Assembly (NCBI RefSeq): GCF_030815865.1
Contig: NZ_JAUSXI010000001.1
Location: 5,022,001 to 5,086,000 of the forward strand
DNA: 64,000 bases
Reading direction: 5' to 3'
Source: Arthrobacter globiformis
Lineage (GTDB): Bacteria; Actinomycetota; Actinomycetes; Actinomycetales; Micrococcaceae
How positions within the stretch are numbered: position 1 is the stretch's first letter; every line of letters starts with the position of its first letter. The translations under genes and the position numbers were made by a program. The notes under the pieces were generated by a model, which saw nothing but the letters and a program-made list of their open reading frames with translations, made no database searches and was not told the origin of the DNA. Below, in pieces: positions 16,764 through 28,854 of this stretch.

Positions 16764-17945
16764 ATGCCAATTGACGTTAAAGCGGTGCGCAGCCAGACCC
16801 GCGGGGTCCTGAACGTCGCCCATTTCAATAACGCGGGAAGTTCCCTCATGTCCCGCCCTGTGGCGGACACGGTGACGGGCCATTTACGCCGTGAAGAGGA
16901 AATCGGCGGCTATGAAGCGGCCGAGGAGGCTGCTGATCGACTGGAAAATGTCTACTCCTCGGTGGCCCGGCTGATCGGAGCGCAGCCGAATGAGGTAGCC
17001 CTGGCAGAGAACGGCAGCCGGGCCTGGGCGGCGGCGGTGTACAGCTTTCCCTTTCTTCCCCGGATGCGGCTGCTGATCGGCCGCACCGAATACGGAGGCA
17101 ATGTCATCGCGCTGCGCCAGCTTGCGCAGCGCAACTACCTTCAGATTGTGGTTCTCGACGACGACCCCCACGGGCAGGTTGACGTGGAGCATCTGCAGGC
17201 CGAGCTGGAGCGTGGAAACGTCGCCATGGTCGCCCTGACTCATGTGCCGATGGCCAATGGCCTGGTCAATCCGGCGGCCGAGATCGGCAGGCGCTGCCGT
17301 GCCGCCGGGGTGCCGTTTGTGCTCGACGCATGCCAGTCGGTGGGCCAGATGCCCTTGGACGTGCAGGCATTGGGCTGCGACGTGCTGGCGGGCACGGGAC
17401 GCAAATTTCTGCGCGGGCCCCGGGGCACCGCGTTCCTCTACGTGCGCGCATCCGTCCTGGAACGGCTTGAACCGGCCATGCTGGACGGGCATTCCGCCGT
17501 TCCGGCCGGCACTGAAGGCTTTGAAGTCCGCGGCGATGCCCGGCGCTTCGAAAGCTGGGAGAGCAGTGCCGCGGGAAGGCTGGGTTTGGGCCGGGCAGTC
17601 GACTACGCCCTGGCCCTGGGGCTGGACGCTGTGCAGGATCGGGTGGCAGGGCTCGCGGAGCAGCTGCGGAGGGAGCTGGCGGCGGTTCCGGGAGTGGCTG
17701 TCCATGACCGCGGGATCACCCGCTGCGGCATCGTGACGTTTTCGGTTGCCGGACGCGAGCCCGGCAGCATAAGGTCCCGGCTGGCGGATCACCGGATCAA
17801 CGTCTCGGTGGCCCCCGGGCCCTTTACAGACGCCCACGCCGTCCTCTCCCAGACAGCGCAAGGTCCGGACATGGTGGTGCGCGCCTCCGTTCACTACTAC
17901 AACACCGAGGCCGAGATCCGGCGGCTGGTCGGTCTCCTTCGGTGA
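16764..17945 (+). CDS. egtE: Class V PLP enzyme, probable ergothioneine C-S lyase EgtE
   Basis: 393-residue class V aminotransferase-fold enzyme. The Schiff-base lysine is near K214 in GTGRKFLRGPRG; the N-terminal AHFNNAGSSLMSRPV and HVPMANGLVNPAAEIG are typical. In mycobacteria EgtE cleaves the C-S bond of the hercynyl-cysteine sulfoxide to give ergothioneine. Here the gene converges on egtD with 56 bases between them, completing egtABCDE. The start is ATG 16764; a GTG two codons earlier (16758) is possible. It lies 23 bases after metZ and may also read from the SAM-IV operon, which would tie ergothioneine to sulfur status. Another cysteine-desulfurase-like role is possible. Confidence 0.82.
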   Translation: MPIDVKAVRSQTRGVLNVAHFNNAGSSLMSRPVADTVTGHLRREEEIGGYEAAEEAADRLENVYSSVARLIGAQPNEVALAENGSRAWAAAVYSFPFLPRMRLLIGRTEYGGNVIALRQLAQRNYLQIVVLDDDPHGQVDVEHLQAELERGNVAMVALTHVPMANGLVNPAAEIGRRCRAAGVPFVLDACQSVGQMPLDVQALGCDVLAGTGRKFLRGPRGTAFLYVRASVLERLEPAMLDGHSAVPAGTEGFEVRGDARRFESWESSAAGRLGLGRAVDYALALGLDAVQDRVAGLAEQLRRELAAVPGVAVHDRGITRCGIVTFSVAGREPGSIRSRLADHRINVSVAPGPFTDAHAVLSQTAQGPDMVVRASVHYYNTEAEIRRLVGLLR

Positions 17946-18001
17946 ACGTCCTGCGATATGGCGGGTGTACGCCTGGCAGGCAGCCCATCTCGGCAGTCGA
18001 G

Positions 18002-18988
18002 CTAATTGGCTTCCGCCAGGGTCATCGCGAAGCGCTTCTGCCCATCGGTCCACTGCCCTGCCACGGAGAACCCGGCCGCTTCCAGCTCGCTGGCCACGCC
18101 TTCGAGGCGGAACTTGGCGGAAATTTCGGTGCGCAGTTCCTCGCCTTCGTGGAACCGGACATCCATGCCCACGCCCGGCAGACGCACCAGCATCGGTCTG
18201 GTGGCGCGGAGCCGCATTTCGATCCACTCTTCCTGGGGCATCCACACCGCCACATGTTCGAAGGCCATCACGTCAAAGTCGGCGCCCAGCTGCGTATTGA
18301 GAACCCGGAGCACGTTCCGGTTGAAGTCGGCAGTGACCCCCTCGGCGTCGTCGTATGCGGGAACAAGGACGCTTGGCGACTTCACCAGATCCGTGCCAAG
18401 AAGCAGCGAGCCACCGTCGCTGCCGAGCAGCTCACGGACGGCGGAGAGGAAACGGGCCCTGGCCGCCGGCTCGAAATTGCCGATCGTGCCGCCTAGGAAC
18501 GCCACCATCCGGCGTCCCGCCCGCGGTAGCACATGCAGCTGGGTTTCGAAATCTGCAGCCACAGCCTCCAGCTCAAGGCCGGGAAAGTCTGGCGCCAGTT
18601 CGTTACGCGCGTCCAGCAGTGCGCTGTCGCTGACGTCCACGGCAACGTAACGGCGAAGGGATCCCGCCTCGCCCAATGCATTCAGCAGCAGCGGGGTCTT
18701 CCTGGAGGATCCGGACCCTAGCTCAATAAGCGTCTGAGCCGGGCAGGCGGCAGCCATCTCTCCGGCAAAAAGTTCAAGCACCTCACGTTCAGCCCGGGTC
18801 GGGTAGTACTCCGGCAGGCCCGTGATGCGCTCAAAAAGTTCGCTGCCCAGCTTGTCGTAGAACCACTTGGGCGGCAGTGTTTTGGGCGACCCGCCGAGCC
18901 CCGCAAGCACGTCCCTGTGCAGGCTTCGCTCCAAGTGGTCCGGGGGCAAATGATGAATGATGTCGGAGCGATCTGCAGAGAGGCTCAA
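18002..18988 (-). CDS. egtD: L-histidine N-alpha-methyltransferase EgtD
   Basis: 328-residue SAM-dependent enzyme that trimethylates the alpha-amino group of histidine to hercynine, the first committed intermediate of ergothioneine. Marks of the Methyltransf_33/EgtD family are LPPKWFYDKLGSELFERIT, LPEYYPTRAE, the SAM loop ELGSGSSRKT, and FLGGTIGNF. Length matches characterised EgtD. The TTG start overlaps the egtC stop (18985-18988), so it is the last gene of a coupled egtABCD operon. Confidence 0.97.
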   Translation of the reverse strand: MSLSADRSDIIHHLPPDHLERSLHRDVLAGLGGSPKTLPPKWFYDKLGSELFERITGLPEYYPTRAEREVLELFAGEMAAACPAQTLIELGSGSSRKTPLLLNALGEAGSLRRYVAVDVSDSALLDARNELAPDFPGLELEAVAADFETQLHVLPRAGRRMVAFLGGTIGNFEPAARARFLSAVRELLGSDGGSLLLGTDLVKSPSVLVPAYDDAEGVTADFNRNVLRVLNTQLGADFDVMAFEHVAVWMPQEEWIEMRLRATRPMLVRLPGVGMDVRFHEGEELRTEISAKFRLEGVASELEAAGFSVAGQWTDGQKRFAMTLAEAN

Positions 18989-19749
18989 GGGGCTACCTGT
19001 TCCTTCGTGAGGTTGGACATCGGACGTACGGCGACGCGGCTGGCGGTGGCGGTCAGAAGGCAGTTATCCGGTACTTCCTGCCAGCCGGGATCGTCGTCGA
19101 TTGGTTCACTTGCCACCACCACACTTCCGGGGCCGGACCGCCAGAAGAGGGTGTCCCCGGCGGCCGTGGCCGCAATGGCCGTCCCGTCGGTGAGCAGAAA
19201 GTTCAACCGGCCAGGGGTCACGGCGGAGACATCCTGGACCACCCGCACCAGAGCATCGCCGGCAGAGTCCCCGGCGGCGAGCCGTTCCAGGACGAGGGCC
19301 CAGAGCAGCGCAGAGTCGGCCTGGGCTTCAAGTGCCAGCAGACGTGACGCCGGAAGTGAGGCAGCCAGCGCCTCCACTGCATGCGGCCAGCCCTCCACAC
19401 GTCCGTTGTGGCTAAAGAGCCATGGCCCGTGCGCATAGGGTGCGGCAGCTGACTCCTCTGGCGACATCCCCGGGGTCGCTGACCGTACGGCCGCCAGCAC
19501 GGCCCCGCTGGAGGTAACCCGGGCGACGTCGGCGAAGGTCCTGTCGGCCCACATCGGCATGGAACGGCGGTAGCGTGCAGGTACCGGATCCCCGGGCGCG
19601 TACCACCCGACGCCGAAACCATCGGCGTTGACAGTCCCGTACCGCTGGCGCCGTGGCGCCCAGGACTGTGTCAGGAGTCCGTTGCCGGGGGTGAGCAGCA
19701 GCTCCGCCAGCGGCATCGCCAGTCCGAGGTAAGCCAGGTGACGGCACAT
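18985..19749 (-). CDS. egtC: Gamma-glutamyl hercynylcysteine sulfoxide hydrolase EgtC
   Basis: 254-residue class II (Ntn) amidohydrolase. The chain begins MCRHLAYLG, so Cys2 is the nucleophile after removal of Met. FSHNGRVEGW and DSALLWALVLERL are typical of the glutamine-amidotransferase type 2 fold. EgtC removes the glutamyl group from the EgtB product. It lies three bases after egtB and overlaps egtD, within the egt operon. Confidence 0.96.
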   Translation of the reverse strand: MCRHLAYLGLAMPLAELLLTPGNGLLTQSWAPRRQRYGTVNADGFGVGWYAPGDPVPARYRRSMPMWADRTFADVARVTSSGAVLAAVRSATPGMSPEESAAAPYAHGPWLFSHNGRVEGWPHAVEALAASLPASRLLALEAQADSALLWALVLERLAAGDSAGDALVRVVQDVSAVTPGRLNFLLTDGTAIAATAAGDTLFWRSGPGSVVVASEPIDDDPGWQEVPDNCLLTATASRVAVRPMSNLTKEQVAP

Positions 19750-19752
19750 GGG

Positions 19753-21102
19753 CTAGCGCTCCTCCGCCAGGGTTGCATCGCGCGCCGTGCGGAAACCGGC
19801 AAAGATCTGGCGCCGGATCGGGTAGTCCCAATTCCGGAACGTCCCCCGGCAGGCGGCAGGATCCACCGCCCAGGAGCCGCCCCGGAGAACCTTGTAGTCG
19901 GAGCCGAAAAACACTTCGCTGTATTCCGGATAGGGGAACGCGGTGAAGCCCGGATGCGGCCGGAAGTCGCTGGCGACCCATTCCCAGACATCGCCGATGA
20001 GCTGGCGCACCCCCAGCGGCGAGGCACCTGCCGGAAAGGAGCCGGCCGGAGCCGGGCGGAGGGCCGCTCCGCCAAGGTTCGCGTGATGCGGTGCAGGGTC
20101 TTCATCACCCCACGGGTAGCGCCGGGAGCGGCCGGACGCGGGATCATGGCGCGCCGCCTTTTCCCATTCAGCTTCGGTTGGAAGCCGGCGCCCGGCCCAG
20201 CGGGCATAGGCGTCCGCTTCGAACCAGCACACATGCTGCACCGGCTCATCGTCGGGTACGGGTTCAACGACGCCAAACCGCGTCCTGGCCCACCCGCCGC
20301 CATCGCGTTCCCAGTACTTGGGAGCCACCAGTCCGGCTTCCCTGCAATGGTCCCAGCCTTTCCCGGTCCACCAGCGGGGGTCCCGGTAGCCGCCGTCGTC
20401 GATGAAACACCGGTAGGCGCCGTTGGTCACCGGAACCGTGTCAATCCAGAAGCCGGGGACGTCCACGGTATGGGCCGGGCGTTCGTTGTCCAGCGCCCAC
20501 GGCTCCACCGAGGTCCCCATGGTGAACGGGCCAGCAGGAACCAGCACTTCCTTCGGCAGCGCATTCAGGTCCCTGGGCAGGACGCTGGCCGCCAACGGTT
20601 TTCCGTGCAGGACCGGCGTTCCGATCCTCAGCTGGTGCGTGGCCAGCATCGTTTCGTCGTGCTGCTGCTCGTGCTGGATGATCATTCCGAAGGCAAAGCC
20701 GCGCTCCACCAGCGGTGAGCCTTCCAAAGGGGTACGTTCCAGGATATCGAGCGCCTTGTCGCGCACCTCGGCGATGTACTTTCGGGACTCCTCCGGCGAG
20801 AGCAAGGGCAGCGAAGTCCGGCGGCTGCGCGGATGCTGGAAGGCGTCGTACATCTGGTCGATGTCGCACCGCAACGGCTCCATTTTGCCCACGTCGCGGA
20901 CCAGCCAGAGTTCCTCCTGGCTGCCAACATGAGCCAGGTCCCAGACCAGTGGTGACATCAGTGGCGAGTGCTGCTTCAGCAGATCTTCCTCGTCGCATTC
21001 GGTCAGCGCATGCGTGCGCTTCCTGGCCCTTTCCAGACCGTTGGCGATGAAGGTCCTGAGTGCTTCGGAGTCGGCCGGGGTCCCGGGAAGGTCAGTACGC
21101 AT
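19753..21102 (-). CDS. egtB: Hercynine oxygenase (sulfoxide synthase) EgtB
   Basis: 449-residue non-haem iron enzyme that joins gamma-glutamylcysteine to hercynine with O2, forming the C-S bond and sulfoxide. The N-terminal DinB-like bundle carries the three iron histidines: H58 (DLAHVGSQEE) and H144/H148 (HEQQHDE). The C-terminal half is the formylglycine-enzyme (FGE-sulfatase) fold: PFTMGT, GFWIDTVPVTN, RRLPTEAEWEKAAR, GDVWEW, LRGGSWA. The ATG at 21102 overlaps the egtA stop by 11 bases and has GAGG nine bases upstream; an in-frame ATG at 21111 is the alternative. Confidence 0.96.
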   Translation of the reverse strand: MRTDLPGTPADSEALRTFIANGLERARKRTHALTECDEEDLLKQHSPLMSPLVWDLAHVGSQEELWLVRDVGKMEPLRCDIDQMYDAFQHPRSRRTSLPLLSPEESRKYIAEVRDKALDILERTPLEGSPLVERGFAFGMIIQHEQQHDETMLATHQLRIGTPVLHGKPLAASVLPRDLNALPKEVLVPAGPFTMGTSVEPWALDNERPAHTVDVPGFWIDTVPVTNGAYRCFIDDGGYRDPRWWTGKGWDHCREAGLVAPKYWERDGGGWARTRFGVVEPVPDDEPVQHVCWFEADAYARWAGRRLPTEAEWEKAARHDPASGRSRRYPWGDEDPAPHHANLGGAALRPAPAGSFPAGASPLGVRQLIGDVWEWVASDFRPHPGFTAFPYPEYSEVFFGSDYKVLRGGSWAVDPAACRGTFRNWDYPIRRQIFAGFRTARDATLAEER

Positions 21103-22399
21103 GATCGGCATCCTCTTCGTGCTCCGGCCGGGCAAACCAACTGCCGGTTCTCTGCCAAAGGTCCAGCCGTTCGTCCGCCGGGCACCGGCCCCGCGCCGCA
21201 TAGCGCTCCACAAAGTCTTCGGTCCGGGCCCGCGTGGCTGCGTCCGCTCCCAACCGCGGCAGAGCCGTCAGCGCGGCTTCAGCGCAGCCCAGTGCGGCCG
21301 CGGCAAGCACCGGGTTCGTCAGCCCGTCACGCGCAGCGGTCCTGATCGGGTCGGGCACGGACGCGGCCGGGGCGCAGGCGTCTGCGGCCAGATCGGCGGC
21401 CAGTTCATCATCCATGAGCGCAGTGACCATCGCCGTGACCGGCTCCCAGTCATGCCCCGCCTGCGCATCGATCACCCTGATTTCCATGAATCCGCGCGGC
21501 CTGACAGGCGGGAAAAGAGTGGTCAGGTGGTAATTCAGGTCGCTCAGGGTCGCAGGCCTGGGGCCCATCCCGCGCAGCCAGTCCCGCATGGTCAGCCCCT
21601 GCGGCGAGTCCCAGCAGGCTTCCGCTGAAGGGATGCACAGGACCAGTGCGTCGAGCGCGTACCGAGCCCAGGCCAGGCGGGGATCCTCAGAACGAGCATC
21701 CTTCGAACGCGGGACGGCGGCGGTCCGGGTGGGGTCAATGGTCAGCCAGGTGCGCTGCCGGCTGCTGAGCCATCCGCTGGGCAGGCCGTGAACGAAAGGC
21801 GAATTAGCGAACATGGCGACGAGGACCGGCAGAAGATTGTGCAATCGCGCCCAGCGCTCCACTGCGCCGTTGGTTGCAGGACCGTCGAATCCGGCTTCCA
21901 GGGAGATCTGGAGTGATGCCGTGGAACACATCATTGTTCGTCCAGCGGGGCCGCAGCCGGCGAAGTGCCTCTCCATGGACGCATACCGCGGATGTTCCAG
22001 GGACCGTACAGCCGGCCGGTCCGGGTCCAGGGCCACCTGGCCGAAGCAGAGGCCTGCGTCCTCAAGCCGGGTCTCCACAGCCGCAAGGTCTGCCCTGGTT
22101 GCCTCCACGAGAGCGGGAAGACCGGGCGCGCACGCGGAGCTCACCTCCAGTTGGCCGCCCGGCTCAAAGGTGATCACGCCGTCGCCGGGCAACTGCCCCG
22201 CGGATGCCGCCATCGCCCCTCTGACCCGTGCAACCGTAACCGGGATCTGTGGATTTAGGACGTCGTAGACCAGTCGCTCCACCTCCACCCCGGCGGCACC
22301 CGGCGGCCCCGTCTTAAAGCACACGGAGGCCACGTACATCTCGGCCTCGGACTCGGAAAGCGGGCGGAGGTCACGCCCGGCCTGCGCTGCGGAGTTCAC
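21092..22399 (-). CDS. egtA: Glutamate-cysteine ligase EgtA
   Basis: About 435 residues, GCS2-type ATP-dependent ligase that makes gamma-glutamylcysteine for EgtB. Visible features are ITFEPGGQLEVSS (a conserved glutamate-binding strand), GRTMMCSTASLQISLEAG, and LPVLVAMFANSPF. I place the start at GTG 22399, which has GGAAGGGA seven bases upstream; a longer reading from 22468 would add a Cys/Arg-rich stretch unlike the family. It is the first gene of egtABCD. The region to 22538 should hold its promoter, back to back with the iron-regulated gene at 22570. Confidence 0.93.
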   Translation of the reverse strand: MNSAAQAGRDLRPLSESEAEMYVASVCFKTGPPGAAGVEVERLVYDVLNPQIPVTVARVRGAMAASAGQLPGDGVITFEPGGQLEVSSACAPGLPALVEATRADLAAVETRLEDAGLCFGQVALDPDRPAVRSLEHPRYASMERHFAGCGPAGRTMMCSTASLQISLEAGFDGPATNGAVERWARLHNLLPVLVAMFANSPFVHGLPSGWLSSRQRTWLTIDPTRTAAVPRSKDARSEDPRLAWARYALDALVLCIPSAEACWDSPQGLTMRDWLRGMGPRPATLSDLNYHLTTLFPPVRPRGFMEIRVIDAQAGHDWEPVTAMVTALMDDELAADLAADACAPAASVPDPIRTAARDGLTNPVLAAAALGCAEAALTALPRLGADAATRARTEDFVERYAARGRCPADERLDLWQRTGSWFARPEHEEDADHAY

Positions 22400-22538
22400 G
22401 CGACACTCCCTTCCGACGGCGGTTGTCTTCAGGCGGCAAGCTAAACAGCACCTTTTCGGCCTTGTCAACGGCCCGGCCCGTAGCGATCAGTTCTATGACG
22501 CCGGAATCCGAAATGTCATGTGCGGCGAAAAACTTTAC

Positions 22539-22557
22539 TTAGGTAAGCCTTAACTAA
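22539..22557. promoter_or_regulatory. Iron box (DtxR/IdeR-type operator)
   Basis: TTAGGTAAGCCTTAACTAA matches the DtxR/IdeR consensus TTAGGTTAGGCTAACCTAA at 15 of 19 positions. It touches a TAATAT -10-like box (22555-22560) nine bases before the GTG at 22570, a position where iron-loaded regulator would repress. The divergent egtA start lies 140 bases away and is less likely to be its target. Confidence 0.75.
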
Positions 22558-22569
22558 TATCCTCTTCGG

Positions 22570-25128
22570 GTGACCACGCAGCTTGATTTCGCGCGGGTGC
22601 CCTTCGCCGCCGATCTGGCGGGTCACGGGGACAGGCCCGCCATTCTCACCGACAATTTCACTCTCACCTACCGGGACTTGGCACGCAGGGTTGATGCCCT
22701 CGCCCTCCGGTTGGGCAGCCAGCGGCGCCTTGTGGCACTGGCTGCGGCGAACGACGTCGACTCTCTGGTCGCGTATCTCGCTGCCCTGGTCGGCGGCCAC
22801 CCGCTGATCCTGCTGCCGGAGGACAAGCCGGCGGCGCTCGAGTCCCTGGTGGCCGCTTACGACCCCGACGTCGTGCTGCGCTCTGCCAACGGAGAGACGG
22901 TGTTTGAGGAGCGCAGGCCCGGAACCAAGCACGAACTCCATCCGGACCTCGCGCTGCTGCTCAGCACGTCCGGTTCCACGGGTTCGCCCAAGCTGGTGCG
23001 CCTGTCCTCCGCCAATCTGCAGGCCAACGCGGAGTCGATTGCCGAGTACCTGGACATCGGCCCTGCTGACCGTGCCGCAACCACCCTGCCGATGTCCTAC
23101 TGCTACGGGCTGTCCGTGATCAACAGCCACCTGCTGCGGGGCGCCAGCCTGGTGCTCACCGACCTGTCCGTCGTTGACCCGTGCTTCTGGGACCTTTTCC
23201 GTGCCGGCGGGGCGACGTCGTTCGCGGCGGTGCCGTACACCTTCGAACTGCTGGAACGGGTGGGCTTTGCCGGCATGGACCTCCCCGGCCTGCGCTATGT
23301 CACGCAGGCGGGTGGCCGGCTCGCCCCCGAACGTGTGCAGAGCTACGCCGAGCTCGGCCGCCGGAAGGGCTGGGAGCTGTTCGTGATGTACGGCCAGACA
23401 GAAGCCACAGCCCGGATGGCCTACCTTCCGCCCGCGCTGGCCGCCGAACACCCCGGCGCCATTGGCATCCCGGTGCCGGGCGGCGCCTTCCGCATCGAGC
23501 CGGTGCCGGGCCTCGAGCACGGCGAACTCGTCTACACCGGGCCCAACGTCATGCTCGGCTACGCGGAGACACCGGAAGATCTCGGCGCCGGCCGCACAGT
23601 CCACGAACTCCGCACCGGCGATCTGGCCAGGAAACACCCGGCCGGCGTCTATGAAGTCGTGGGGCGGCGCAGCCGGTTCGTCAAGATCGTTGGCCTCCGG
23701 GTTGACCTCGGCCAGGTGGAGCGCATCCTGGCCGACCTCGGCGTTGAAGCGGCGAGCGCAGGCACCGACCAGGGACTCGTGGTCGCCGTCGAGGGCAGCC
23801 ACGACACCCAGCTGCTGGCCAAGGTCCTCGCCCAGGGCATCGGACTGCCCCGTGCGGCCCTGGAGCTGCACGCCGTCGAGCATCTCCCCCGCCTGGCCAC
23901 CGGGAAAGTGGACTATCCGGCGGTCCTTGCGCTCTCAACCCCGGCGCCCGCAGAATCCGCGCCGTCAGGAGCCGGGCCGGACCGGCCGGGACCGGAAACC
24001 GTTCGGCGGATCTTCCGCGACACCCTGGAGCGCACCGACATCGGCGACGGCGACACGTTCGTCTCGCTCGGCGGCGACTCGCTGTCCTATGTGGCCACGT
24101 CCGTCCGCCTGGAGCAGTTGCTGGGCCATCTCCCGTCGGATTGGCACGTGCGGCCGATCTGCGACCTGGAGCAGCACCCGGGGACAAAGCCTGCCGGAAA
24201 GATGCGGCGGTTCTTTGCTCCGATCGAGACCAGCATCGTGCTGAGGGTCGTGGCCATTGTGCTCATCGTCAGCACCCACGTGGGGCTGATGAAATGGCCG
24301 GGGATGGCCCACGTGCTTATGGCGGTGGCCGGCTACAACTTCGCCCGGTTCCAGCTCAGCGGGGAACGGCTTCCCCGGCTCAGGCGCCAGCTCACCAGCG
24401 TCGCCAGGGTGGCGCTGCCCAGCATGGCGTTCATCGGAGTGGCCTACCTGATCACCGACCGGTATACGCCGGCCAATGTCCTGCTCCTGAACTCCGTGGT
24501 CGGCCCTGAAGCTGTGACCACGCAGTGGCACTTCTGGTTCATCGAGGTGCTGGTCTACATCCTTCTGGGCCTGACGGCCCTATTGGCCATACCCTGGGCG
24601 GACCGCACCGAGCGGCGGTTCCCGCTGCTCTTTCCGCTTGCCCTTACCGGCCTCGCGCTGCTCTCGCGCTACGACATTGTGGATCCCGGCATTCCCCACC
24701 CGTCGCCGACCCTGTGGCTGTTCGTCCTGGGCTGGGCCATTGCCCGGACCCGGACGGTGATACAGCGGTGTGCGGTGTCAGTCCTCGCGATCCTCACGGT
24801 CCCCGGGTGCTTCTTCGGGGATTCGAATCGTGAGCTGACGCTTGTTGCCGGAATCCTGCTGCTCACCTGGCTGCCCACCCTCCCCGTGCCCAGAGGGCTG
24901 CAGCGCCTGACGGTGCTTCTGGCCAGCGCTTCCCTCTACGCGTACCTGGTGCACTGGCTGGTCTATCCGCTACTGGCCGCAACCAGCCCGGCCCTTGCTG
25001 TGGCGGCGTCCCTGGCGGCCGGGATTGCTTACTGGGCGCTGTGCACACGCGTCATGGGGCTGTTGAGCCGGAGCAGCTTGGGCACGCTCCGCCGCCGGCT
25101 CAACATGCCCAAGACCCACAACGCCTGA
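22570..25128 (+). CDS. Adenylation domain - carrier protein - membrane acyltransferase fusion, iron-regulated
   Basis: 852-residue three-part protein. Residues 1-460 are an AMP-forming adenylation domain (STSGSTGSPKLVRLS, MYGQTEATARMAY, ELRTGDLARK, RFVKIVGLRVDLGQVE, and ATGKVDY with the late lysine). Residues 475-540 are a carrier protein; S504 in LGGDSLS is the phosphopantetheine site. Residues 545-852 are an acyltransferase-3-like membrane domain with about nine or ten helices. It probably activates an acyl or amino-acyl acid, loads it on its own carrier, and passes it to a membrane or exported acceptor, comparable in logic to DltA-DltC-DltB. An iron box overlaps its promoter, so it may build or modify a siderophore or an iron-stress envelope component. 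The substrate is unknown. Start GTG, no ribosome site. Confidence 0.85.
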   Translation: MTTQLDFARVPFAADLAGHGDRPAILTDNFTLTYRDLARRVDALALRLGSQRRLVALAAANDVDSLVAYLAALVGGHPLILLPEDKPAALESLVAAYDPDVVLRSANGETVFEERRPGTKHELHPDLALLLSTSGSTGSPKLVRLSSANLQANAESIAEYLDIGPADRAATTLPMSYCYGLSVINSHLLRGASLVLTDLSVVDPCFWDLFRAGGATSFAAVPYTFELLERVGFAGMDLPGLRYVTQAGGRLAPERVQSYAELGRRKGWELFVMYGQTEATARMAYLPPALAAEHPGAIGIPVPGGAFRIEPVPGLEHGELVYTGPNVMLGYAETPEDLGAGRTVHELRTGDLARKHPAGVYEVVGRRSRFVKIVGLRVDLGQVERILADLGVEAASAGTDQGLVVAVEGSHDTQLLAKVLAQGIGLPRAALELHAVEHLPRLATGKVDYPAVLALSTPAPAESAPSGAGPDRPGPETVRRIFRDTLERTDIGDGDTFVSLGGDSLSYVATSVRLEQLLGHLPSDWHVRPICDLEQHPGTKPAGKMRRFFAPIETSIVLRVVAIVLIVSTHVGLMKWPGMAHVLMAVAGYNFARFQLSGERLPRLRRQLTSVARVALPSMAFIGVAYLITDRYTPANVLLLNSVVGPEAVTTQWHFWFIEVLVYILLGLTALLAIPWADRTERRFPLLFPLALTGLALLSRYDIVDPGIPHPSPTLWLFVLGWAIARTRTVIQRCAVSVLAILTVPGCFFGDSNRELTLVAGILLLTWLPTLPVPRGLQRLTVLLASASLYAYLVHWLVYPLLAATSPALAVAASLAAGIAYWALCTRVMGLLSRSSLGTLRRRLNMPKTHNA

Positions 25129-27330: not shown

Positions 27331-28854
27331 TCAGTCCTGAAAGTACTCGATCTTGGCGCCGATGGTGTTGAGCCGCTCCGCGAGGTCCTCGTAGCCGCGC
27401 TCGATGACGTAGATGTTGCGCAGCTCGGAAACTCCGCGGGCCGCCAGCATCGCCAGCAGGAGGCAGGCAGCGGGACGCAGCGCGGGCGGGCAGCCCACTT
27501 CCGCGGCACGCCAGCGCGTGGGGCCGTTGACGTAGATGCGGTGCGGGTCCAGCAACTGGATCCGGGCGCCCAGCTTGTTCAGCTCCGTCAAGTAGATCGC
27601 GCGGTTCTCGTACACCCAGTCGTGGATCATGGTCTGGCCCTCGGCATTGCCCGCGATCACCGCGAAGAACGGAAGGTTATCGATGTTCAGCCCGGGGAAC
27701 GGCATCGGGTGGATCTTGTCCTCCGGCGCGCGCAGCTCCGAGGGCTTCGTGGTCACGTCCACCAGCCGGGTGCGCCCGTTGCGGGCCGTGTACTCGCCGG
27801 AGACCTCCAGCTGCTGGCCCATCTGTTCCAGGGTGGCCAGCTCTATCTCCATGAATTCGATGGGCACCCTGCGGATGGTCACCTCTGAGTTGGTGACAAT
27901 GCCGGCGGTGATGAGGCTCATCGCCTCGATGGGGTCCTCCGAGGGGAAGTACTCGATGTCGACGTCGATGGTCGGTTTGCCGGTGATCTTTAGCGTGGTG
28001 GTTCCAACGCCGTCGATCTCCACGCCCAGCCGCTGCAGGTAGAAGCAGAGGTCCTGGACCATGTAGTTGGGGCTGGCGTTGCGGATGACCGTGGTGCCGC
28101 AGCGGTGGGCCGCGGCCATGATGGCGTTCTCCGTAACGGTGTCGCCGCGCTCGGTCAGCACGAAGGACCTGTCCAGTTCGTCGGTGGGAGGTGCCTGCAC
28201 GCTGTAGAAGCCTGAACTGGCCTCCACGGACAGACCGAACTGCCGAAGTGCCTGCATGTGCGGCTCCACGGTGCGGATGCCCAGGTCGCAGCCCCCGGCG
28301 TAGGGCAGCCGGTATTCATCGGTCACATCAAGCAGCGGACCCAGCAGCATGATGACGCTGCGGGTCCGGCGCGCAGCCTCGGCGTCCATGGACGCCAGGT
28401 CAAGGTCCGCAGGCCGGCGGAGGCGGAGATCGTTGTCGTTGAGCCAGGTGCATTCGACGCCGATGCTGCTCAGAACCTCGACGATGCGGTTGACCTCCTC
28501 GATCCGGGCCAGCCGGCGCAGCGTCGTGGTGCCACGGTTGATGAGGCTGGCGCATAGAAGAGCGACCCCGGCGTTCTTGCTGGTGTTGACGTCAACGGAG
28601 CCCGAAAGCGTCCTGCCGCCCTCTACGCGGAGGTGGGTCATCTGCGATTTGCCGAGCTGGACGAAGCTGCGGCCGAAGATAGCCTCCAGGCGCTGGATCA
28701 TTTTCAGGCTCATGTTCTGCTTGCCCTGTTCCATGCGGGCCACGGCACTTTGGCTGGTGCCGAGTTCCGCGGCCAACTGGCCCTGGGTCCACCCCTTCTG
28801 GCCGCGGGCGTCGCGGAGCAGAAGACCAACATGTTCAACAGTCTGTTGTGTCAT
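27331..28854 (-). CDS. XRE helix-turn-helix fused to a MurA-like enolpyruvyltransferase
   Basis: 507 residues. Residues 1-65 are an XRE/Cro DNA-binding domain (LLLRDARGQKGWTQGQLA, TSQSAVARMEQGK). Residues 75-507 have the MurA/EPSP-synthase inside-out barrel: GSVDVNTSKNAGVALLCASL, PYAGGCDLGIRTVEPH, ENAIMAAA, PFPGLNIDNLPFF, LTELNKLGARI. The catalytic-loop cysteine (GGCDLG, Cys115 of E. coli MurA) and the late aspartate are kept, but several substrate-binding stretches differ. It may sense a UDP-sugar or phosphoenolpyruvate and regulate transcription, or still act on the first step of peptidoglycan synthesis. TATATT lies six bases before the ATG, and a palindrome overlaps it, suggesting autoregulation. 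Confidence 0.9.
   Translation of the reverse strand: MTQQTVEHVGLLLRDARGQKGWTQGQLAAELGTSQSAVARMEQGKQNMSLKMIQRLEAIFGRSFVQLGKSQMTHLRVEGGRTLSGSVDVNTSKNAGVALLCASLINRGTTTLRRLARIEEVNRIVEVLSSIGVECTWLNDNDLRLRRPADLDLASMDAEAARRTRSVIMLLGPLLDVTDEYRLPYAGGCDLGIRTVEPHMQALRQFGLSVEASSGFYSVQAPPTDELDRSFVLTERGDTVTENAIMAAAHRCGTTVIRNASPNYMVQDLCFYLQRLGVEIDGVGTTTLKITGKPTIDVDIEYFPSEDPIEAMSLITAGIVTNSEVTIRRVPIEFMEIELATLEQMGQQLEVSGEYTARNGRTRLVDVTTKPSELRAPEDKIHPMPFPGLNIDNLPFFAVIAGNAEGQTMIHDWVYENRAIYLTELNKLGARIQLLDPHRIYVNGPTRWRAAEVGCPPALRPAACLLLAMLAARGVSELRNIYVIERGYEDLAERLNTIGAKIEYFQD

Follow-up and report, generated by a model that had tools for sequence, protein, structure and literature searches.

What does a bacterium do with a single polypeptide that joins an adenylation domain, a carrier domain and a membrane acyltransferase, when its gene stands behind an operator of the type used for iron control? 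This question is raised by a gene of Arthrobacter globiformis found in a 64,000-nucleotide stretch of contig NZ_JAUSXI010000001.1 (the window), which has a GTG start and encodes a protein of 852 residues. In our opinion, it is probably an enzyme of iron starvation working with the ferric-iron ABC (ATP-binding cassette) importer FbpABC; it would activate, load and transfer a small acid, and the product would deliver ferric iron. FbpABC importers are common, and the route of ferric iron to FbpA outside pathogens is often unclear. An enzyme of soil Actinomycetota that is apparently co-regulated with FbpABC and often adjacent to it, and that has homologues in Rhizobiales under RirA-type boxes, ties the question of FbpA supply to a single gene. 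The architecture, the conserved catalytic residues, the recurring operator-like boxes and the repeated adjacency to and co-occurrence with FbpABC are computed observations.

The earlier note on this DNA had read the gene product as one chain with an AMP-forming domain, a carrier with its attachment site at S504 and an acyltransferase-3-like membrane domain, and Pfam bears this reading out. AMP-binding (residues 14–331, 3.3e-44), PP-binding (residues 476–519, 4.6e-05) and Acyl_transf_3 (PF01757, AT3 below; residues 557–812, 1e-08, 35.1 versus the gathering value of 31 bits) follow each other in this order, all above their gathering cut-offs. The Pfam scan found no condensation or thioesterase domain and, with Acyl_transf_3 in its stead, no MBOAT domain. 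The AlphaFold2 model, built from 83 homologues, has a mean pLDDT of 89.6 and a pTM of 0.61 and shows helices in the AT3 region. In the structure search with the full-length model, the adenylation domain matched oxalate-CoA ligase, MenE, VinN and MatB; among the 50 matches listed each time in the full-length fold searches there were only adenylation-type chains and no AT3 chain. The domain search for the three-domain architecture that had been proposed as a check showed that full-length relatives with all three domains are common, and the fusion is therefore not an assembly artefact. Homologues among the matches listed bear generic names, for example AMP-binding protein or acyl-CoA synthetase. 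Two phosphopantetheinyl transferases of the ACPS family are encoded in the genome.

In two relatives, L035 (genome G030) and G009:C57, the gene is broken up into separate open frames, which suggests decay or sequencing errors; G009 has two full-length copies besides the split one. At L029 and L031, the match is listed in pieces, yet the open frame is whole (890–891 residues).

The operator TTAGGTAAGCCTTAACTAA was scored against a 19-bp consensus that we take to be the DtxR one and that stands behind all box scores given here. It agrees with this consensus at 15 of 19 positions on the forward strand, the same count as in the earlier note, and at 16 of 19 on the reverse strand. The box, whose first base (22539) is the start position given in the earlier note, stops 12 bp short of the gene start and is the only DtxR-type site of the window at three or fewer mismatches, and 100 shuffles give none. 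In the whole genome (5.11 Mb), a degenerate DtxR pattern has four sites at three or fewer mismatches versus one for the reversed-pattern control, and the box before the 852-residue gene has the fewest mismatches of the four. The other three precede an FbpABC set (L075), an uptake set of Peripla_BP_2/FecCD type (L076) and, immediately upstream of it, the gene of a siderophore-interacting protein (L077). Two DtxR-family proteins (PF02742) are encoded in the same genome.

Recurrence of the box was studied in 81 loci, namely those of relatives (the best 80 of 405) and the window's own, in the range from –150 to +60 around the called start, and the 66 loci outside the commonest fbp operon were scored separately from the 15 inside it. 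A box of at least 14/19 was found in 57 of the 66 non-operon loci versus 22 of 1299 surrounding genes, some of which may be true iron genes; the box ends 11–14 bp upstream of the called start in 41 of these 57 loci. In the 15 operon loci it stands before fbpA instead (at least 14/19 in 13 of them, at least 13/19 in 14). On plasmids of Rhodococcus and Mycolicibacterium, the highest-scoring boxes upstream of the first gene are weaker, 13–15/19.

It had also been claimed that the gene stands alone. This is true of the window locus, where no iron gene adjoins it, and does not extend to the family, which repeatedly adjoins FbpABC. An FbpA-like gene lies within 10 kb in 19 of the 81 loci and always at gene –3 or –1, so the transporter set is directly adjacent; a twentieth locus, L155, with permease and ATPase genes at a contig end, was left uncounted. 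The order fbpA-fbpB-fbpC-target, where the target is the gene under study, is found in 16 Micrococcaceae loci, in Actinotalea and on Mycolicibacterium plasmids, the order target-fbpA-fbpB-fbpC on Rhodococcus plasmids, and a divergent arrangement in one Micromonospora, one Streptomyces and Pararhizobium, a member of another phylum. FbpABC is adjacent in all seven plasmid records examined, which are four of the seven Rhodococcus records and all three Mycolicibacterium records among the matches.

The FbpA proteins of linked loci fall into four groups with 26–35% identity between groups. The solved relatives of the Kocuria protein are 7li0 and FutA-like ferric-binding proteins, and those of the proteins from Mycolicibacterium and from the window's own genome are SfuA/YfuA-like ferric-binding proteins. 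In a FastTree phylogeny of 67 proteins (from all 19 linked loci, 29 of the remaining 62 with the window among them, 17 plasmid loci and two loci from the phylum sample described below), the label "linked" needs eight changes, five of them forced by well-supported branches. L166 and L167 are long rows of unsure placement in this tree, and at L166 a gene stands between the target and FbpA.

The target-FbpABC module of Rhodococcus and Mycolicibacterium (L173–L175, L185–L188) is plasmid-borne, and five of the seven plasmids are typed as mobilizable; the module may therefore spread horizontally.

The two genes also tend to occur together across genomes. The target is present in 29 of 59 related genomes, and an FbpA match was found in 29/29 of these versus 14/30 of the others (nominal p = 1.3e-6); a second FbpA query of the Kocuria type marks the identical 43 of 59 genomes. 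Outside the genus, the values are 5/5 versus 3/17 (nominal p = 0.002). In a sample of 296 genomes from the phylum, FbpA accompanies the gene in 13 of 16 genomes and occurs in 90 of the 280 without it (nominal p = 1.3e-4), and in four of the 13 having both (G127, G095, G165 and G088) the listed FbpA lies 0.2–2.7 kb from the gene.

Members of Rhizobium, Sinorhizobium, Mesorhizobium, Leisingera and Paracoccus carry homologues at about 37% identity; precomputed Pfam annotation shows AT3 in only part of these alphaproteobacterial proteins. Passages of PMC6386902 give the RirA site, the iron-responsive operator (IRO) box, as TGA-N9-TCA. We found an exact IRO box within 130 bp before the gene in 8 of 12 alphaproteobacterial loci versus 107 of 2850 background windows, mostly coding, from the same loci. 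The 12 loci were chosen for diversity among 84 matching plasmid records and include near relatives (L171/L184 and L172/L181); two of them, L180 and L184, carry no annotation, and their gene start was taken from the match. The box of L172, counted among the eight, is at –121, and an IRO-like box of L180 with N8 spacing was counted as a miss. Given the recurring DtxR-type boxes, the IRO boxes and the iron-uptake neighbours, what began as one motif looks like a regulatory pattern, as far as sequence comparison can tell.

In Sinorhizobium meliloti, the homologous gene is three genes ahead of ndk, which is SMc00595 in passages of PMC11253843 and PMC7756342, so with consecutive numbering it is probably SMc00592. 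Table 2 of PMC2848241 lists SMc00592 ("Hypothetical, transmembrane protein") with the profile –0.44, 1.47, 1.30, –0.23, near the profiles of hmuV, hmuT, fhuF, fhuP and exbB in that table, so that it resembles genes for the uptake of heme and siderophores. The section of PMC2848241 holding the table does not name it an iron gene, and passages of the RirA papers PMC8822346, PMC12815270 and PMC6386902 make no mention of such a gene.

Conserved residues were taken from 316 sequences thinned at 80% identity to 83 rows, 41 actinobacterial and 42 proteobacterial. S504, R559, H570, R593, W656, F657, E659, Y792, H795, R282 and K446 are invariant in 83/83, and S504, R559 and H570 are accordingly kept in all 42 proteobacterial rows. 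K446 is presumably the catalytic lysine of adenylation. R559 and H570 form the R-X10-H motif, described in sections of PMC9833829 as absolutely conserved in AT3 domains and placed in the first membrane helix. For the RXXR of the cytoplasmic face of AT3 helix 3 the window has R600-L-P-R603; in the same register, R603 is kept in 41/41 and R600 in 36/41 actinobacterial rows, and R603 in only 8/42 proteobacterial rows. In VinN, Asp230 reads the amino group; Arg331 reads a second carboxylate, as parts of PMC2912261 and PMC4941405 report. By alignment, the adenylation pocket resembles that of VinN, with the carboxylate-reading Arg kept and the amino-reading Asp absent; pocket position 235 is Cys or Ser in 83/83 homologues.

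From these data we infer a response to iron, a substrate class, a transfer from carrier to AT3, an acceptor and a chelating role, which may be joined as follows. Under iron shortage, the operator would be vacated by its repressor, of DtxR/IdeR type or, in Alphaproteobacteria, RirA, and the gene would be expressed. The adenylation domain would activate a small carboxylic acid without an alpha-amino group, probably with a second carboxylate, that is a hydroxy-, keto- or dicarboxylic acid, which would be loaded onto S504 of the carrier domain. The fused AT3 domain would then take the acid off the carrier arm and pass it to an acceptor at the outer membrane face, and the product, either a ligand tethered to an envelope component or a small secreted one, would offer ferric iron to FbpA. 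Most loci have no conserved neighbour in common, and for this reason the acid and its acceptor are likely to be everyday metabolites or components of the envelope. Judging from the pattern, two distant bacterial groups may share an undescribed route of iron acquisition. As a more tentative extension, which we find possible and rather doubtful, this may be a minimal siderophore-free system in two phyla, where a single chain attaches an iron-binding dicarboxylic acid (of hydroxy or keto type) to an outer-face acceptor, with AT3 drawing on the chain's own carrier arm, and FbpABC collects the iron. In either reading, AT3 transfer would be fed by a carrier protein rather than a CoA ester; the siderophore-free system, if real, would answer what supplies FbpA-type importers in bacteria without a matching siderophore.

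A number of observations weigh against this partnership or its details. No FbpA lies within 10 kb in 62 of the 81 loci, among them that of the window (at some loci the flank is short), and an FbpABC partner would act there in trans. In the phylum sample, gene and FbpA are apart in 9 of the 13 genomes having both, and three of the 16 genomes with the gene give no FbpA match (G224, G295 and G332, in 50, 270 and 440 contigs). Among 10 annotated alphaproteobacterial loci, FbpABC stands beside the gene only in Pararhizobium and not in the other nine. Regarding the boxes, one of the four genome sites could be chance, because the reversed pattern also yields one; nine of the 66 non-operon loci stay below 14/19 (best scores 9–13), and 4 of the 12 alphaproteobacterial loci have no exact IRO box. 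The IRO comparison sets loci picked for diversity against a mostly coding background, and TTGAC in the IRO matches may belong to a –35 element. The co-occurrence p-values overstate the association, because related sequences and genomes are not independent. The substrate and acceptor assignments are inferred from a few pocket residues and the AT3 class.

Among other explanations, the one that survives best is a Dlt-like, iron-regulated surface modifier, which acylates the wall or a lipid, alters charge or permeability and binds no iron, FbpABC being merely co-regulated. We consider it unlikely, with a real share of probability: AT3 enzymes typically acylate envelope carbohydrates, as sections of PMC9833829 state, and neighbours vary at most loci, so that the acceptor probably comes from ordinary metabolism. 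The adjacency, however, repeats with divergent FbpA groups, and the two genes occur together outside the genus (5/5 versus 3/17, as above); this exceeds co-regulation, because a shared box would suffice for that.

The earlier note had thought of a siderophore made elsewhere as the acceptor, and this idea has lost ground to the point of being improbable. A candidate exists in the genome, the hydroxamate of a probable nonribosomal peptide synthetase-independent siderophore (NIS) cluster of desferrioxamine type at C1:607788-613277 (L074 5789-11278), with a Lys/Orn monooxygenase and an IucA/IucC synthetase; its decarboxylase- and acetyltransferase-like genes were recognized by eye only. Against this, an IucA/IucC synthetase, the one siderophore type that was searched for, is missing from 16 of the 29 related genomes that carry the gene, these synthetases are not associated with the gene (13/29 with it versus 9/30 without it, p = 0.29), and the tested importers adjoining the gene belong to the ferric-ion FbpA class and not to the Peripla_BP_2/FecCD class. 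A NIS siderophore was rejected as the acceptor on this absence of association across the 59 genomes. A metabolic acyl-CoA ligase fusion, with the iron box and FbpABC neighbours reflecting a general stress regulon, is the least probable of all: in structure the adenylation domain comes close to the CoA ligases, and listed homologues bear generic names only, but S504, R559 and H570 are invariant in 83/83 and boxes of two unrelated iron regulators occur in two phyla.

Returning to the enzyme of iron starvation that we prefer, its nearest mechanical counterpart is the Dlt system, in which adenylation, carrier loading and a membrane acyltransferase acting toward the outer face follow each other, with an MBOAT transferase and separate chains (DltA, DltC and DltB). 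The fused, Dlt-like and iron-responsive machine of the earlier note stands as to the fused architecture and the operator; Dlt itself remains a likeness in the way of working. The 852-residue protein is one chain with AT3 instead of MBOAT and a pocket without the amino-reading Asp, and it has an iron-type operator and, in relatives, FbpABC neighbours. Dlt is thus the best mechanical comparison and the protein is not a Dlt member, because it has a transferase of another class and lacks the amino-reading residue. With the AT3 acyltransferases OafB, OatA and Oac it shares R-X10-H in the first membrane helix and PF01757 above the cut-off, whereas it adds N-terminal adenylation and carrier domains and has no SGNH domain; since these two domains precede AT3, the acyl donor is probably the tethered carrier rather than acyl-CoA. 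Among solved stand-alone adenylation enzymes, VinN (3-methylaspartate) is the closest in sequence, and its MYGQTE motif and carboxylate-reading Arg align; the differences are Cys/Ser in place of Asp230, a loop one residue longer and the fusion to carrier and AT3. Siderophore synthetases of the nonribosomal peptide type (EntF, DhbF, MxcG) also combine adenylation and carrier domains under iron control, whereas here a membrane acyltransferase stands instead of condensation and thioesterase domains. The FbpABC/SfuABC/FutABC ferric importers are the repeated genomic partner, the FbpA of the window's own genome being SfuA/YfuA-like.

No description of the architecture or of its pairing with FbpABC was found in open PubMed Central text, which holds no preprints and few subscription-only papers. 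Sections of PMC9833829 mention AT3 fusions with SGNH and alanine-racemase domains, and the term AMP-binding is absent from its main text.

Table. Positions of the gene, its domains, key residues and upstream elements in the window
Feature	Position	Strand	Basis
Adenylation/carrier/AT3 protein, 852 aa, GTG start	22570..25128	+	ORF (open reading frame), Pfam, AlphaFold2 model
Adenylation domain, residues 5–457	22582..23940	+	Pfam and structure matches
Carrier domain, residues 476–519	23995..24126	+	Pfam
Acyl_transf_3 (AT3) membrane domain, residues 557–812	24238..25005	+	Pfam; helices in model
DtxR/IdeR-type operator TTAGGTAAGCCTTAACTAA	22539..22557	.	15/19 on +, 16/19 on – versus assumed consensus
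Possible –10 element TAATAT overlapping operator end	22555..22560	+	By eye only
S504, phosphopantetheine attachment serine, in LGGDSL	24079..24081	+	Pfam and 83-row alignment
R559-X10-H570, AT3 motif, invariant 83/83	24244..24279	+	Alignment; motif as in sections of PMC9833829
K446, adenylation lysine, GK of motif A10, invariant	23905..23907	+	83-row alignment
R282, invariant 83/83, aligned with VinN Arg331	23413..23415	+	Sequence alignment
Pocket residues C178-Y179 (GrsA 235–236; VinN D230-F231), amino-reading Asp absent	23101..23106	+	Sequence alignment

If TAATAT were the –10 element, a near-leaderless mRNA would follow; a sigma-70 consensus scan at this element found no promoter.

As for neighbouring genes, the ergothioneine genes egtA, egtB and egtC (NCBIfam equivalogs) lie divergently from the 852-residue gene at 16785–22468, along with egtD- and egtE-like genes that were recognized only by eye. 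A link with ergothioneine was dropped, as the close relatives L078–L080 carry other genes at that place; for the same reason, it seems that the egt cluster was inserted or lost in particular lineages. The genes that follow downstream (a member of the Asp/Glu racemase family, a YbdK-type ligase and a fusion of helix-turn-helix with a MurA/EPSP-synthase-type carboxyvinyltransferase at 27331–28854) were rejected as partners, being common to only 8 of the 81 loci. Near homologues from Micromonosporaceae there is a CE1758/CE1759 pair of monooxygenase and FMN reductase (L154:537-2263 and five further loci), which is possibly a further iron-related partner.

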